Below, piece after piece: positions 16,446 to 29,056 of a DNA stretch of 64,000 nucleotides. Numbering within the stretch: the first letter of the stretch is position 1; every line of letters starts with the position of its first letter. A program made the position numbers and the translations under genes. The stretch spans positions 124,001-188,000 of the forward strand of contig NZ_JAVHUY010000005.1 of assembly GCF_031085175.1 (NCBI RefSeq). Direction: 5' to 3'. A model generated the notes under the pieces. That model had not been told where the DNA came from. It saw only the letters and a list, made by a program, of their open reading frames with translations, and ran no database searches. The stretch is from Phytohabitans maris (lineage in GTDB: Bacteria > Actinomycetota > Actinomycetes > Mycobacteriales > Micromonosporaceae).

Positions 16446-16988
16446 TCATCGGCCGGCCACGCCGCGGAGCAGCGTGAACTCGGCGGCCAGCGCGTCCGGC
16501 GTGTAATGGGCGTTGAGGCCGCTCGGGTTGGGCAGCACCCAGATCCGGGTCGTGCCGATCCGCTCCGGCTGCGCGCCGAACGTCGCCTTCGGCCGCGAAA
16601 ACGCCGTCCGGTACGCGGTCACGCCCACCACCGCCAGCCACCGCGGGCGATACCGGCGCACCTTCGCGGTGAGCCGTCCGGCGCCGGCGACCAGCTCGGC
16701 GGTGCTCAGCTCCTCGGCGCGGGCGGTGGCGCGCTCGGCCACGTTGGTGATGCCCAGCCCGAAGCCGAGCAGCTCCTCCTGCTCGTCCGGGCGCAGCTGG
16801 CGCGGCGTGAAGCCGGAGCGGTGCAGGGCTGGCCAGAAGCGGTTGCCCGGGCGGGCGAAGTGGCGTCCGGTGGCGGCCGAGTACAGGCCGGGGTTGATGC
16901 CGCTGAACAGCACGGCCAGCCCGGGCGCGATCACGTCCGGGATCGTCCGGTCGGCCGCGGCGGCGAGCTGCTCCTTCGTGGGCTTCAC
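16446..16988 (-). CDS. mug: Mug-type G/U(T) mismatch-specific DNA glycosylase
   Basis: 180 residues. The uracil-DNA-glycosylase fold of the Mug/TDG branch is shown by FSGINPGLYSAATGRHFA (residues 28-45; GINPG is the catalytic motif), GFGLGITNVAERATA, and the DNA-intercalation motif VLPNPSGLNAHY near residue 152. The protein removes uracil, ethenocytosine or thymine opposite guanine. The start ATG overlaps the stop of the upstream SDR gene (ATGA), so the two are probably cotranscribed, without an obvious functional link. Confidence 0.9.
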   Translation of the reverse strand: MKPTKEQLAAAADRTIPDVIAPGLAVLFSGINPGLYSAATGRHFARPGNRFWPALHRSGFTPRQLRPDEQEELLGFGLGITNVAERATARAEELSTAELVAGAGRLTAKVRRYRPRWLAVVGVTAYRTAFSRPKATFGAQPERIGTTRIWVLPNPSGLNAHYTPDALAAEFTLLRGVAGR

Positions 16989-17746
16989 AGGGCCCGTACG
17001 GCGCCGCCGTCGACCGGGATCGACAGGCCGGTCAGGTAGCTGGCGGCCGACGACAGCAGGAACGCCGCCACCCGCCCGAACTCGGCCGGCTCGCCCAGCC
17101 GCCCCATCGGGATCGCCGCCTCCGCCTCCAGCTTCGCCCGTTCGGGGTCGCCGGTCGCCGCGAAGAGCTCGCGGTTGCGGTCGGTGAGGATGCGGCCGGG
17201 CAGGAGGCTGAAGACGCGGATGCCGCGCGGCGCGTACTCGTCGGACATGTCCTTCGCCACGCCGGCCAGGCCGGGGCGAAGGCCGTTGGAGAGGCCGAGG
17301 CCCACGATCGGGCTCCGCACCGACGTGGAGAGGACCAGCCCGATGGCGCCGTCACCGTCGATCGCCTCGGCCACCGTGCGGGCCAGCCGCACCGTGCCCA
17401 GGAACACCGTCTCGAAGGCCGCCCGCCACTGCGTGTCCTCCAGCGTGGCGGCGGTGCCCCGGGGCGGCCCGCCGACCGAGATCAGCGCACCGTCGACCCG
17501 CCCGAACCGCTCCCGTGCCGCCGCCACCAGCCGCTCGGCGGCGAGGGGGTCGCCGAGGTCGGCAGCCACGCCGATCGCCTGCTCCGGTACGCCGAGCCGC
17601 TCGACGGCGGCGGTCACGGCGTCCGCGGAGCGCGCGGAGACGACGACGTTGGCACCCTCCGCGACCAGGCATTCGGCGGTGGCGTACCCGAGGCCGCGGG
17701 AAGCACCGCTGAGGACATAGACGCGGCCGGCAAGTCCGAGATCCAT
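16985..17746 (-). CDS. SDR-family NAD(P)-dependent oxidoreductase
   Basis: 253 residues with a Rossmann fold. The cofactor site is VLSGASRGLGYATA (residues 9-22), followed by NVVVSAR and AADLGDP. The region LSTSVRSPIVGLGLSNGLRPGLAG lacks the classical Ser-Tyr-Lys spacing: the Tyr position is taken by Leu/Ser-Asn. This is seen in some divergent SDRs and may mean altered or lost catalysis. The C-terminus YLTGLSIPVDGGAVRAL is typical. AGGA upstream supports the ATG at 17746. The substrate is unknown. Confidence 0.85.
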   Translation of the reverse strand: MDLGLAGRVYVLSGASRGLGYATAECLVAEGANVVVSARSADAVTAAVERLGVPEQAIGVAADLGDPLAAERLVAAARERFGRVDGALISVGGPPRGTAATLEDTQWRAAFETVFLGTVRLARTVAEAIDGDGAIGLVLSTSVRSPIVGLGLSNGLRPGLAGVAKDMSDEYAPRGIRVFSLLPGRILTDRNRELFAATGDPERAKLEAEAAIPMGRLGEPAEFGRVAAFLLSSAASYLTGLSIPVDGGAVRAL

Positions 17747-17811
17747 GCGCCGATCCTGCCACCACCCCATCAGGTCGGCTCACCACGCCCGGCTCGGCGG
17801 GGCGATGGGCC

Positions 17812-17858
17812 GTGATCGAAGCTCCCCCCAAGTCGCTAGAACGACCTGCGGGGGGGGT
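17812..17858. repeat. Degenerate copy of the 54-nt palindromic element
   Basis: GTGATCGAAGCTCCCCCCAA, then GTCG-CTAGAA-CGAC. The left arm matches the perfect palindrome at 33716-33769, but the right arm has decayed into CTG-C-G(8). The loop CTAGAA is the reverse complement of the loop TTCTAG in the other copy, so the two elements lie in opposite orientation. It overlaps the end of the SCO6045-like gene. Confidence 0.75.
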
Positions 17859-18269
17859 ACAGACCAGACGGGGGGGGCGGCGGAAGAGGCGGCTCAGGCG
17901 GCGGCGCGGGCGCAGGGCGGCCTCGCGCTCGGCCAGCTCCTCCGCGGCCGCGCCGGTCAACGGCAGGGAACGGGCCAGGGCCAGACCGTCCTGGAAGGAG
18001 CCCGCCGTGGGGCGGCCGCCGCCCCACTCGGCGAAGACCGCCGGCCACCTCGTGCCGAACGACGCCGCCAGCAGCGGCCAGTGCCGCGCCACCTCGCCGG
18101 ATCGCTTGCGCAGCAACGCCTGCCGTGCGATCTCGACGAGCCGGGGGTCGAAGCCGTCCGGGATCGGGGCGCCGGCGACGAGCGCGGCGACCAGGGCGGC
18201 CTGGCGCTCGGCGAGCGACCCCGTGGCGCCGCCTGGTGCGACCGGTGCGGTGCCGCCGGGGCGGGTCAT
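17836..18269 (-). CDS. SCO6045-like partner protein of DUF692, 3' end frame-uncertain
   Basis: Starts at ATG 18269, overlapping the DUF692 stop (ATGA). The first ~120 residues (LAERQAALVAALVAGAPIPDGF, IARQALLRKRSGEVARHWPLL, FAEWGGGRP) match the C-terminal domain family of Streptomyces SCO6045, a regular neighbour of DUF692 genes. By analogy with partner proteins of other MNIO enzymes it may bring substrate to the oxidase; that is inference. The terminus is odd: after RRRLSRLFRRPP the strict frame has no stop until 17352, deep inside the next gene. A one-base change in either of two 8-G tracts (17850-17857, 17870-17877) moves it to a TAG at 17836. The end given here assumes such a shift. Confidence 0.65.
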
Positions 18270-19267
18270 GTCACGACCGGGTAGCCGGAGGCGGTGGCGA
18301 TCGCGTCGAGCTCGGTGCGGAGGGTGTCGGCGGGCGGGTAGTGGCCGTCGCGTTCGAGCATCAGGGCCGGCGGGCGGTGCCGGGCGCAGAGCTCGGTGAC
18401 CAGGTCGAGCACCTGCGGCGGTACGGCGTCCGTGTGGGTGTCGTGGTAGACGCCGTCGTGCTCGGCGCCACCGGCCACGTGGACGTACGCCACGCGGTCC
18501 AGCGGCAGCCGGTCCAGCAGGTCGGTGGGCTCGGTGCCGCGGTTGCGGGCGTTGGCGTAGACGTTGGCGATGTCGAGCAGCAGCAGCGCGCCGGTCCGGT
18601 CGAGGATCTCGGTCAGGAACGCCGCCTCGTCCAGCTCGTCGTCGGGCCAGTCGAAGATGGCGGCGATCGGTTCGAGCGCGATGGGGACCGGCAGCTCGGC
18701 CTGGGCGCGGGCGACGTTGGCGACCACGGCGTCGACCGCCTCGCGGCTGCGCGGGAGGGGGAGCAGGTGGCCCGCCTCGAGGCCGCCCGCCCGCACGAAC
18801 GCGATGTGCTCGCTCACCAGCGGCGCGTCCAGCTGCCGCGCGGCGGCGGCGAGGTGCGCGACGCGGGCCGGGTCGACGGGCTCGGCGCCGCCGAGGGAGA
18901 GCTTCACGCCGTGCGGGATGACCGCGGTGCCGGCGTCGCGCAGGGCGGCGAGGGGAGCCGGCACCGGCCCGGAGGCCGGCACCGACTCGGCGATCACCTC
19001 GGTGAAGCGGAGGCCGGGCAGCGCGGCCACGAAGCCCGCGATCTCCGGCCGCCACCCGATCCCAACCCCGAAGGCGCCATCCCCGCCGAAGGCGCCGCCC
19101 GCGCCGGAAGCGCCACCGCCCGCGGCGAGACCGCCACCCGCACCGGAGGCCCGACCCAGCCCGGACGAGCCAGCCATGGCCGGCAAGGCGGCTGGCCCGG
19201 GGGACGCGGCCGGGTGCGACGCAGCGCGCGGGCCGGATGCGCCACCGGCACCGGAGGGAACGGTCAT
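18266..19267 (-). CDS. DUF692 family multinuclear non-haem iron oxidase (MNIO)
   Basis: 333 residues. The first ~65 are Gly/Ala/Ser-rich low complexity; the TIM-barrel DUF692 domain begins at GVGIGWRPE. Candidate metal ligands typical of the family are His119 (IPHGVKLSLGG), Glu153/His154 (VSEHIAF), Glu199 (ALEPIAAIF), Asp232 (LLLDIANVYANARN), His263 (YVHVAGG), His275/His278 (YHDTHTD) and Glu305 (LMLERDGHY). Known relatives (MbnB, TglH and others) use two or three iron ions to modify cysteines in peptides. Both ends overlap neighbours by 4 bp, so it is translationally coupled to an upstream membrane protein ending in a Cys/Gly tail and a downstream SCO6045-like protein. The tail is the obvious candidate substrate. 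Confidence 0.88.
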   Translation of the reverse strand: MTVPSGAGGASGPRAASHPAASPGPAALPAMAGSSGLGRASGAGGGLAAGGGASGAGGAFGGDGAFGVGIGWRPEIAGFVAALPGLRFTEVIAESVPASGPVPAPLAALRDAGTAVIPHGVKLSLGGAEPVDPARVAHLAAAARQLDAPLVSEHIAFVRAGGLEAGHLLPLPRSREAVDAVVANVARAQAELPVPIALEPIAAIFDWPDDELDEAAFLTEILDRTGALLLLDIANVYANARNRGTEPTDLLDRLPLDRVAYVHVAGGAEHDGVYHDTHTDAVPPQVLDLVTELCARHRPPALMLERDGHYPPADTLRTELDAIATASGYPVVT

Positions 19268-20205
19268 CCGCCGCAGCCTCCCCCGCAGCCGCCGCCACAA
19301 CCGCCGCCGCCACCGCACGAGCTGCCGCCGTCGCCACCGCCGGAGCTGGAGCCGCCGGAGTCGCCGCCCGAGCCGCCGTAGTAGCCGCCCGTGCCGGCGG
19401 TCGAGGCGTACTGGCGCTGGATCTCGGCCTCTTCGGCGAAGGCGGCGTCCGCCTGCCAGAGGGACGCGGCGCCGTACAGGCCGACGCCGAGCGCGAGCCC
19501 GGCCGCGCCGTACGTGGCCCAGGCGGGGGTCATCGAGGGGGCGAGGTAGGTGTGCTGGCGGCGCAGCTCGTCGAGGGCCCGGCGGGCGGCGCGGGTGCGG
19601 GTCGGGATCGTGCGGAAGACGATGAGCGTGACCAGGGCCCAGACGATGGTCAGCACGACCAGGTAGCCCACCGGCTTGCCGCCCGCGATGCCGGCCACCA
19701 GCCGCACCACGCCGAGGCCGAGCAGCACCAGCATCAGGAACGGCACCGCCCGCGCCGCCTGCCGCGTGCCCTCGCTCGGGGCGAGGCCACGCCGCTCCAG
19801 GTCGTCGCGGAGGGTGGTGAGCGCCATCCGCACCCACTGGTCGCCGTCCACGTCGCGGGCGCGGACGCGCTGGCCGGCCGCGTTGTACACGGCTTGGTCG
19901 AGCGGGGTGGCGCCGGCCGGCATCGGGCCGGACGCGGTGAGCGTGCGGCCGGGGCCCACCTCGATCGCGCCGGCGGCCCGGAGGCCGGCGAGGGAGGAGT
20001 AGACGGCGAGCCGGTCGCCGCCGTTGAGGTAGGCGACCTGCTGCGGTCCGAGCCGGTCGACGGGGGTGTGGTGGCCGGCGAAGAGCACGGCCCGGTGGAT
20101 CAGCGCGGCGATCACCAGCGCGACCGCGGCACCGGCGAAGATCGCCAGGAAAGTGGGCCCGGGGATGCCCCAGGTGTCGCCCTGTGCGGCGAGAACCGTC
20201 TCCAT
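19264..20205 (-). CDS. TIGR04222 membrane protein with Cys/Gly-rich C-terminal tail
   Basis: 313 residues. Four hydrophobic stretches are visible: FLAIFAGAAVALVIAALIH near residue 20, FLMLVLLGLGVVRLVAGIA near 155, YLVVLTIVWALVTLIVF near 182, and YGAAGLALGVGLYGAASLW near 233. A cytoplasmic-looking domain between the first two (LGPQQVAYLNGGDRLAVYSSL) is the TIGR04222 hallmark. After about residue 265 the protein becomes Gly/Ser-rich and ends in a tail with cysteines at 297, 303, 307 and 311 (SSCGGGGGCGGGCGGGCGG). Such a tail beside an MNIO resembles a peptide substrate fused to a membrane anchor. The start ATG lies 22 bp after the acnR-like stop, so the whole run may be one transcript. Confidence 0.85.
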   Translation of the reverse strand: METVLAAQGDTWGIPGPTFLAIFAGAAVALVIAALIHRAVLFAGHHTPVDRLGPQQVAYLNGGDRLAVYSSLAGLRAAGAIEVGPGRTLTASGPMPAGATPLDQAVYNAAGQRVRARDVDGDQWVRMALTTLRDDLERRGLAPSEGTRQAARAVPFLMLVLLGLGVVRLVAGIAGGKPVGYLVVLTIVWALVTLIVFRTIPTRTRAARRALDELRRQHTYLAPSMTPAWATYGAAGLALGVGLYGAASLWQADAAFAEEAEIQRQYASTAGTGGYYGGSGGDSGGSSSGGGDGGSSCGGGGGCGGGCGGGCGG

Positions 20206-20227: not shown

Positions 20228-20800
20228 TCACGCCTTTCGGACGGCATCCTCGACCAGGTCGAGCACCCGCCCGAGACCGCCCGGCGGGCGTCCGGTGGCC
20301 AGGTGGAGGACCAACCCGTCGTACGCCAGCTCGAGGAACTGGGTCAGCAGGTCGAGCGGCACGTCGTCGCGGAGCACGCCGGCGTCGCGCTGGCGGCGGA
20401 GCCGCTCGTGGGTGGCGTCGGTGATGGCCTGCGAGCGCTGCGCCCACCGCTTCGCGAACGCCGGGTCGGTGCGCAGCCGCCGCGACACCTCCAACTGGCT
20501 GCCCAGCCACCCGGCCGTCTCGGTCGAGTCGGCGCGGGCGAGCAGGTCGCGCATCACCTGGACGAGGCCGTTTCGCGTGACCGTCTCGACCATCGCGGCC
20601 GCGTCGTCCTCGGCCACGGCGAGGAAGAGCGACTCCTTGTCACGGAAGTGGTGGAAGATCGCACCGCGGGACAGGCCGGTCTCTTCCTCCAGCCGGCGGA
20701 CCGTGGCACCCTCGTAGCCGTGCCGAGCGAAACAGGCGCGAGCGGCGGCGAGGATCTCCTGGCGCCGCGCGTCGAGCTGGTCCTGACTCACTCTCGGCAC
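20228..20800 (-). CDS. acnR: AcnR-like TetR-family repressor
   Basis: 190 residues. The N-terminal TetR helix-turn-helix is RQEILAAARACFARHGYEGATVRRLEEETGLSRGAIFHHFRDKESLF. The following stretch (EDDAAAMVETVTRNGLVQVMRDLL, QLEVSRRLRTDPAF) closely resembles Corynebacterium AcnR, the aconitase repressor, from memory. Supporting this, the aconitase gene lies 5.4 kb away in this window, and its promoter carries a near copy of the palindrome at 20839-20850 beside the acnR start. GTG at 20800 is used; GTG at 20791 is possible. The gene runs into the TIGR04222/DUF692 operon with a 22-bp gap, an unusual neighbour for an aconitase repressor. Confidence 0.75.
   Translation of the reverse strand: MPRVSQDQLDARRQEILAAARACFARHGYEGATVRRLEEETGLSRGAIFHHFRDKESLFLAVAEDDAAAMVETVTRNGLVQVMRDLLARADSTETAGWLGSQLEVSRRLRTDPAFAKRWAQRSQAITDATHERLRRQRDAGVLRDDVPLDLLTQFLELAYDGLVLHLATGRPPGGLGRVLDLVEDAVRKA

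Positions 20801-26236: not shown

Positions 26237-29056
<2,820 letters not shown>

Follow-up and report, generated by a model that had tools for sequence, protein, structure and literature searches.

A candidate maturation system for a cysteine-glycine protein tail, comprising an MNIO enzyme and a small partner protein, in Phytohabitans maris

The stretch of DNA analyzed here, called the window throughout, comprises 64,000 nucleotides of Phytohabitans maris (contig NZ_JAVHUY010000005.1, positions 124,001 to 188,000) and contains a three-gene unit that encodes, in order on the minus strand, a TIGR04222 membrane protein, an MNIO (DUF692, PF05114) enzyme and a small helical partner protein. The TIGR04222 protein (19264..20205, minus strand, 313 residues) was identified from its translation and from NCBIfam TIGR04222, which it matched over residues 23-250 with 159 bits against a cut-off of 43. 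This protein carries a C-terminal Gly/Ser/Cys tail (approximately residues 268-313; 19267..19404, minus strand) with four cysteines within 19273-19317, and the tail ends ...SSCGGGGGCGGGCGGGCGG, which corresponds to C-x5-C-x3-C-x3-C in glycine. The MNIO enzyme (18266..19267, minus strand, 333 residues) matched Pfam PF05114 with 264.7 bits against a cut-off of 25, and with 265.2 bits in the genome search. Both junctions of the unit, including that of the enzyme gene with the TIGR04222 stop, are 4-bp ATGA overlaps. An initial annotation, made from the sequence alone, had described three genes with 4-bp overlaps, a cysteine tail and the DUF692 metal ligands, and our family searches and reading of the junctions bore this out. 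The closest named relatives of the operon proteins were those of Phytohabitans. The Cys-Gly3-Cys-Gly3-Cys motif occurred only once in the 9.87 Mb assembly, in the TIGR04222 tail, and its reversed control did not occur in the assembly at all, which indicates that the tail motif is more than chance.

The association of the tail cysteines with the enzyme was examined in a class sample of 345 genomes of the window's class, which were searched for TIGR04222 and PF05114. TIGR04222 matches were found in 94 genomes (119 proteins) and PF05114 matches in 81, and 110 stretches were taken that cover all 119 TIGR04222 proteins and ten MNIO places without TIGR04222. The TIGR04222 search was limited to an E-value of 1e-8 and eight scored candidates per genome, and distant paralogues (e.g., that of G161, described below) were missed by it. 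A Gly/Ser tail was defined as at least 60% Gly, Ser or Cys in the last 30 residues, and cysteines were counted in the last 60; protein L145, which has unknown residues in its tail, was excluded from the tail tables. Such a tail was present in 65 proteins, and at least three tail cysteines were found in 48/48 proteins with MNIO in the stretch, 5/10 with MNIO elsewhere in the genome and 1/7 with none. The lone case without MNIO, L132 (G362), ends 140 bp from the end of its contig, and an MNIO gene begins in that short remainder. G362 was thus ruled out as a Cys-tailed genome truly without MNIO, and the corrected counts are 49/49, 5/10 and 0/6. Four of the five Cys tails with a distant enzyme came from one genus, g255; those four genomes have MNIO and partner at another locus, where three of them also have a single-helix Cys-tailed carrier. 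The five tails with MNIO elsewhere and without three cysteines comprised two from genomes with bufferin-type MNIO only (G502 and G561) and three of Streptomyces type. Gly/Ser tails in genomes without MNIO were similar but contained mainly Asp, Glu or Trp instead of Cys. Counted by genome, cysteines and MNIO were both present in 51, cysteines without MNIO in 3, MNIO without cysteines in 17 and neither in 23 (Fisher p of 4e-8, a value that ignores relatedness). The three genomes with cysteines and without MNIO are G362, with its contig end, and G326 and G311, in which three cysteines are scattered after the domain rather than in the last 60 residues. An earlier tail rule, which missed short tails and was replaced, gave the same direction (45 and 2 over 23 and 24, against 51 and 3 over 17 and 23).

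A second sample comprised 80 loci of named genomes from an MNIO-profile scan, chosen by their likeness to the Phytohabitans enzyme and not at random. Nine in which the contig ends at the MNIO start were left out, and in 68 of the 71 informative loci, the TIGR04222 protein had a Gly/Ser tail with two or more cysteines. Among the remaining three, the tail of L234 lies in a shifted frame, L299 (Gordonia) lacks TIGR04222 and encodes a short protein with a Cys tail, and L249 is described below with the other tail-less loci. In the class sample, 49 of the 69 TIGR04222 proteins beside an MNIO gene were Cys-tailed; tails without cysteine in most homologous loci, which the initial annotation had named as evidence that would speak against it, were thus found in neither sample. 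The 120 closest TIGR04222 relatives included 110 with a Gly/Ser tail containing at least three cysteines, and the other ten comprised three complete tails with two cysteines, five proteins labelled partial and two that end without a tail. The MNIO domain started at most 40 nt from the carrier stop in 60/67 named loci, and the MNIO gene overlapped the stop of the tail gene by ATGA in 47/67. We also observed that contigs break at the Gly/Cys tail in nine of the 80 named loci (L229, L253, L257, L264, L270, L275, L276, L286 and L290) and in L132. Counts of tails and neighbours taken from draft genomes are therefore probably too low.

Across 47 class-sample tails, Gly came directly after 207 of 238 cysteines, against a shuffled mean of 146 and a maximum of 168 over 2000 shuffles, and Gly before Cys was not above expectation. 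In the 11 Ser-rich Streptomyces-type tails, the residue after Cys was Gly in 55 and Ser in 16 cases, and the residue before Cys was Gly in 19 and Ser in 46. These neighbour counts are partly dependent, as repeat expansion copies neighbouring units. Additionally, 112 of the 115 close relatives with at least two cysteines end in Cys plus two residues, and tail length and cysteine spacing differ widely among relatives. The Gly and Cys codons are one base apart, and the cysteines could in principle have arisen by chance, through GGC to TGC mutation as a glycine run drifted, an idea that the variable length and spacing and the dependence introduced by repeat expansion would suit. We regard this as very improbable and rejected it, as the cysteines are linked to MNIO, Gly is strongly preferred after Cys with no excess before it, and the C-terminal ending is conserved; in addition, same-family Gly/Ser tails without MNIO mostly have Asp, Glu or Trp, with 0/6 having three cysteines in the last 60 residues.

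Similar tails were also found on other carriers. Eight loci with enzyme and partner (L169-L171, L174, L176-L178 and L190) encode a single-helix carrier of 83-119 residues in place of TIGR04222, and the tails of these carriers are Gly/His/Cys or Ser/His/Cys. At L172 (5876-7234, minus strand), a 447-residue carrier ending ...GGGCGSAGGCGGGGCGGGGGGCGGGGC is encoded approximately 60 bp before an enzyme-partner fusion; it revealed no clear hydrophobic segment (highest 19-residue mean of 1.39) and no family match. The occurrence of similar tails on other carriers beside the MNIO enzyme makes it probable that the tail serves as the substrate and that one carrier can stand in for another. The single-helix carriers may equal the very small proteins encoded after MNIO genes that PMC12452194 calls adjamnio-V, for which its main text gives no sequence. 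A different explanation is that TIGR04222 serves the mature product as a membrane platform or transporter, the true precursor being a small peptide missed by gene callers. The short precursors of other MNIO clusters (PMC12452194) and the Cys-less TIGR04222 proteins beside Streptomyces MNIO genes are in its favor, but the 4-bp overlaps leave no room between the three genes of the window, and a helix plus tail of 83-119 residues, as in the eight loci, is too small for a transporter, so that we consider this explanation improbable.

The side of the membrane on which the tail lies was judged from charge. The fourth segment of TIGR04222 had more Lys/Arg before than after it in 40/45 proteins, which would place the tail outside, as PMC12452194 also does, but this segment is weakly hydrophobic, with a median of 1.14 and values of at least 1.6 in 7/45. 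The eight single-helix carriers have 6-8 Lys/Arg directly after the helix and 0-1 before it, a pattern that points to a cytoplasmic tail. The TIGR04222 tail may lie on either side of the membrane. With a cytoplasmic enzyme, the tail would be modified before crossing the membrane or would stay inside. The view of the initial annotation that the modification is membrane-anchored and made in place gained no support, given the predicted cytoplasmic tails of the single-helix carriers, the carrier without a clear membrane segment and the divided evidence for TIGR04222.

The partner gene (17352..18269, minus strand) had been given an end at 17836, which we found to be the stop of another frame; its own open reading frame continues to 17352. 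The resulting protein has 305 residues, and its 25 best relatives have 114-144 residues. The conserved part (approximately residues 18-120; 17910-18218) is intact despite the missing stop. The extended frame overlaps the next gene, a short-chain dehydrogenase at 16985-17770, and its region contains runs of 7-8 C; the missing stop could reflect an assembly error or a real change. The partner protein itself had no match in Pfam or NCBIfam, including none to DUF2063, and its relatives carry PF26136, the "SCO6045-like C-terminal domain", so that the earlier name of SCO6045-like was correct. In the class sample, the partner was present at 68 of the 70 MNIO loci and formed one open reading frame with the enzyme in 37; among the named loci, it was present in 80/80, always encoded separately. 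The fusion also exists among public proteins: when one Streptomyces fusion was used as the query, in a search confined to proteins of similar length, PF05114 and PF26136 were present in each of the 120 relatives listed. A sequence-profile search for the fold of the partner gave no significant match among solved structures (best E of 0.42), and NGO1945/3dee and TglI were absent from the fold lists obtained for the partner, an absence that proves nothing. The gene directly follows the MNIO gene and its product lacks a DUF2063 match, as in PME-type 2 partners, and we place the small P. maris protein with them. PME-type 2 model B of PMC12452194 is a 158-residue protein of Micromonospora matsumotoense, and the partner frame at that species' locus L235 has a start giving 158 residues; membership of the same family is judged by place and this length only.

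Considering these results together, we estimate a probability of about 70% that the unit is a maturation system for the Cys-Gly tail, in which MNIO and its partner would oxidize the tail cysteines of the carrier protein. This estimate draws on several sequence findings: the operon, conserved metal-site residues, tail cysteines that go together with the enzyme, a partner that is nearly always present and can be naturally fused to the enzyme, and similar tails on other carriers. The proposal of the initial annotation that the tail is the substrate gained support from them, and the idea itself was already in PMC12452194. In the proposed mechanism, the MNIO enzyme, held with its small all-helical partner, would oxidize cysteines in the Cys-Gly steps of the flexible C-terminal Gly/Ser tail, and the carrier in P. 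maris would be the TIGR04222 membrane protein. The tail cysteines would thereby be chemically modified. The enzyme is presumed to be cytoplasmic and to act before or without export of the tail; no sign of export was seen, and no signal-peptide predictor was run. The product may bind metal or sense thiol stress.

Several observations weigh against this reading. Co-occurrence of the Cys/Gly tail with DUF692, which the initial annotation had suggested checking, was evident from the counts given above, but a tree-aware test yielded only six independent contrasts on strong branches and the sign test was not significant. The tree contained 118 of the 119 TIGR04222 rows, one having been dropped for unknown residues, and approximately three of the six contrasts lay in the expected direction, almost none in the opposite one and approximately three showed no difference. 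The active site provides a second point. The Phytohabitans enzyme has the conserved metal-site residues and TIM-barrel fold of PF05114, and nine metal-site-type residues were invariant in 77/77 clade members; the equivalent of HvfB Asn175, however, was Ala in 74 of the 77 and Ser in the other three. The third iron site (HvfB N175, D242 and H244) is therefore incomplete, with Asp and His kept and Asn replaced, and three bufferin-type enzymes of the sample have Asn there. The HvfB residue numbers were taken from the available part of PMC13419390 and mapped via the printed 3BWW alignment; according to the same source, changing Asn175 abolished HvfB activity, and the equivalent change in MbnB left some. 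TglH has His at this position and thus also lacks the site-3 Asn, so that loss of Asn does not exclude MNIO membership. The product of the clade without this Asn may differ from a thiooxazole. As a separate feature, the N-terminus of the P. maris enzyme has a 66-residue Gly/Ala-rich extension (19070-19267, minus strand) that contains no cysteine.

The remaining points against tail maturation are MNIO loci without a Cys tail. In the class sample, 51 of the 70 MNIO loci had a Cys-tailed carrier and 19 did not. Of these 19, thirteen were Streptomyces loci whose sole TIGR04222 protein was tail-less, L118 was a locus of the same kind in another family, and the last five (L165-L168 and L173) were among the ten MNIO places without TIGR04222. 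Outside the 70, the partner-bearing MNIO loci L175 and L179-L181 likewise had neither TIGR04222 nor a Cys tail, and among the named loci, L249 (Virgisporangium) contained MNIO, partner and a tail-less TIGR04222 protein. When 17 Streptomyces-type genomes were searched more deeply, G161 alone yielded a distant TIGR04222 protein with a Cys tail. A laxer tail rule applied to eleven tail-less loci gave a single match, in a doubtful frame of L165 far from the enzyme, and rough gene calls in ten loci together with the laxer scan revealed no convincing tail hidden in a neighbouring gene.

The Streptomyces loci belong to genus g8, which was assigned to Streptomyces because one of its proteins is identical to one from Streptomyces sp. 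M92. The 17 tail-less TIGR04222 proteins beside the enzyme in this genus form one clade; four of them adjoin a Cys-tailed paralogue (L074, L076, L087 and L091), and the others account for the 13 loci with tail-less proteins only. Cysteines in the N-terminal region of the tail-less clade were conserved in 18 and 17 of 19 proteins, and we did not consider them to be the target of the enzyme. The distant protein of G161 (L207:1183-2112) ends CGTSCGGGCGGGCGGE and lies far from the MNIO gene, and the MNIO locus of that genome holds only a tail-less TIGR04222 protein. When used as the query, the G161 protein revealed a relative in one other genome, without a tail. A tail pattern search of 18 genomes was uninformative, with 3-16 sites per genome against 84-187 in the reversed control, and of 15 sites taken from it, only that of G161 was a convincing C-terminal tail. 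For the tail-less loci, this leaves two options: the enzyme acts on a different substrate, or the substrate was lost first and the enzyme is now following it.

These loci bear on the possibility that the tail works unmodified as a metal or thiol binder, with MNIO and partner modifying another peptide or protein of the same stress response. The 19 loci without a Cys tail, including Streptomyces fusions beside tail-less TIGR04222 proteins where the enzyme may have another use, are in line with it, as are Gly/Ser tails with a single Cys or Asp that exist away from the enzyme. An unmodified tail would, however, leave unexplained why Gly/Ser tails with at least three cysteines are confined to MNIO-encoding genomes in the sample, why the enzyme gene so often overlaps the stop of the tail gene and why single-helix carriers with a similar tail replace TIGR04222. 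We therefore judge this possibility unlikely, though less so than a missed precursor, and continue to favor maturation of the tail.

A broader and more tentative proposal, which we would not yet back over its negation, is that the Gly/Ser/Cys tail acts as a portable tag for MNIO, recognized on its own by enzyme and partner on at least three unrelated carriers, namely multi-helix TIGR04222, the single-helix proteins and a protein with neither a membrane segment nor a family match. MNIO chemistry would then be a post-translational modification of ordinary proteins, probably cytoplasmic, by a clade that lacks the site-3 Asn and so may make a non-thiooxazole product. Characterized MNIO enzymes act on peptides, and in the sources available to us, the modification of a full-length protein in its tail is so far a suggestion, made for TIGR04222 proteins. 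Were the tail sufficient for recognition, it could be attached to any protein for a quick test, and many actinobacteria, including the Micromonospora-like genera sampled, would have a protein-borne metal or thiol center. The natural Streptomyces fusions of enzyme and partner make single-protein biochemistry easy.

Among the neighbours tested, only carrier, enzyme and partner were common across families. A TetR-family regulator at 20228..20800 (minus strand) matched the solved AcnR structures 4af5 and 4ac6 with E-values of 5.5e-58 and 6.2e-58, respectively, and this AcnR orthologue ends 22 bp upstream of the TIGR04222 start. An AcnR-type regulator was found upstream on the same strand in 44 of the 80 named loci, versus 3 of the 110 class stretches, and is the probable first gene of the transcript in the window's family. 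An aconitase-family gene (27230-28837, minus strand) lies approximately 6.4 kb further upstream of the AcnR orthologue on the same strand, so that the MNIO unit sits near an aconitase-AcnR locus. In g8, a chlorite-dismutase-family gene, which we take to be HemQ-like, and a flavin oxidoreductase gene, presumably HemG-like, lie beside 24 of 27 MNIO loci (e.g., L067, L070, L078 and L079) and no others. Judging by the Pfam name and the Streptomyces relatives, SCO6045 would be an MNIO-partner fusion. According to the available part of PMC4991794, 0.15 mM H2O2 induced SCO6045 3.0-fold in wild-type S. coelicolor, along with genes for cysteine assimilation, and no induction was seen for any gene in a mutant of a redox-sensing system; this peroxide induction fits weakly with a role in thiol or metal stress. 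We also observed that TIGR04222 is weakly like DUF2207 (Pfam E of 0.053), with PF20990 listed on P0159 and P0223, and that many sub-cut-off TIGR04222 matches outside the class (L015-L029 and others) lie in frames of approximately 550-1200 residues and may be DUF2207 proteins.

Comparison with known MNIO systems revealed likenesses and differences. The bufferin/oxazolin systems (BufB/HvfB with a DUF2063 partner) share the enzyme superfamily, a Cys-rich substrate and a partner protein with the Phytohabitans unit, and the EGKCG motif of the oxazolins, a family so named in PMC12452194, has Cys followed by Gly, as in the TIGR04222 tails. In contrast, the Phytohabitans enzyme scored 181.9 bits with NCBIfam NF050167 (BufB), below the equivalog cut-off of 310, whereas L185, a bufferin-type actinobacterial control enzyme, scored 363 bits; the Phytohabitans partner lacks the DUF2063 match in Pfam, Ala or Ser replaces the site-3 Asn of HvfB, and the proposed substrate is a protein tail rather than a secreted peptide. 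The enzyme is only 25% identical to TglH, and the substrate of TglHI (pearlin) is a free peptide; MbnBC (methanobactin) similarly shows low sequence identity and a free peptide substrate. The partners of TglHI and MbnBC matched the Phytohabitans partner too weakly to prove a common fold.

The closest known system is the TIGR04222-MNIO-PME type 2 cluster described by Antoine et al. in 2025 (PMC12452194, cited here from the parts available), the gene set of which is identical to that of P. maris. These authors found over 3,500 TIGR04222 proteins, described Gly/Ser C-terminal regions with cysteines, and proposed the Cys-tailed subset as likely MNIO substrates with PME-type 2 partners, a hypothesis for which those parts report no experiment. 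TIGR04222 and SCO6045 were rarely named in the literature searched, where we found neither an experiment on a TIGR04222 tail as an MNIO substrate nor biochemical work on this enzyme clade. In their data, C-proximal cysteines were absent from more than a quarter of the TIGR04222 proteins, MNIO was missing from 490 of 1372 TIGR04222-bearing genomes, and many TIGR04222-MNIO clusters seemingly had no partner, with PME-type 2 in at least 10%, compared with 68/70 class loci and 80/80 loci chosen by likeness to the Phytohabitans enzyme here. The test of cysteines against MNIO, the MNIO-partner fusions, the other tail carriers and the site-3 change are not reported in the parts covered. To the published proposal, our analysis adds a strong co-variation between tail cysteines and the enzyme, a partner that is almost always present and frequently fused, and the recurrence of such tails on carriers of different kinds.

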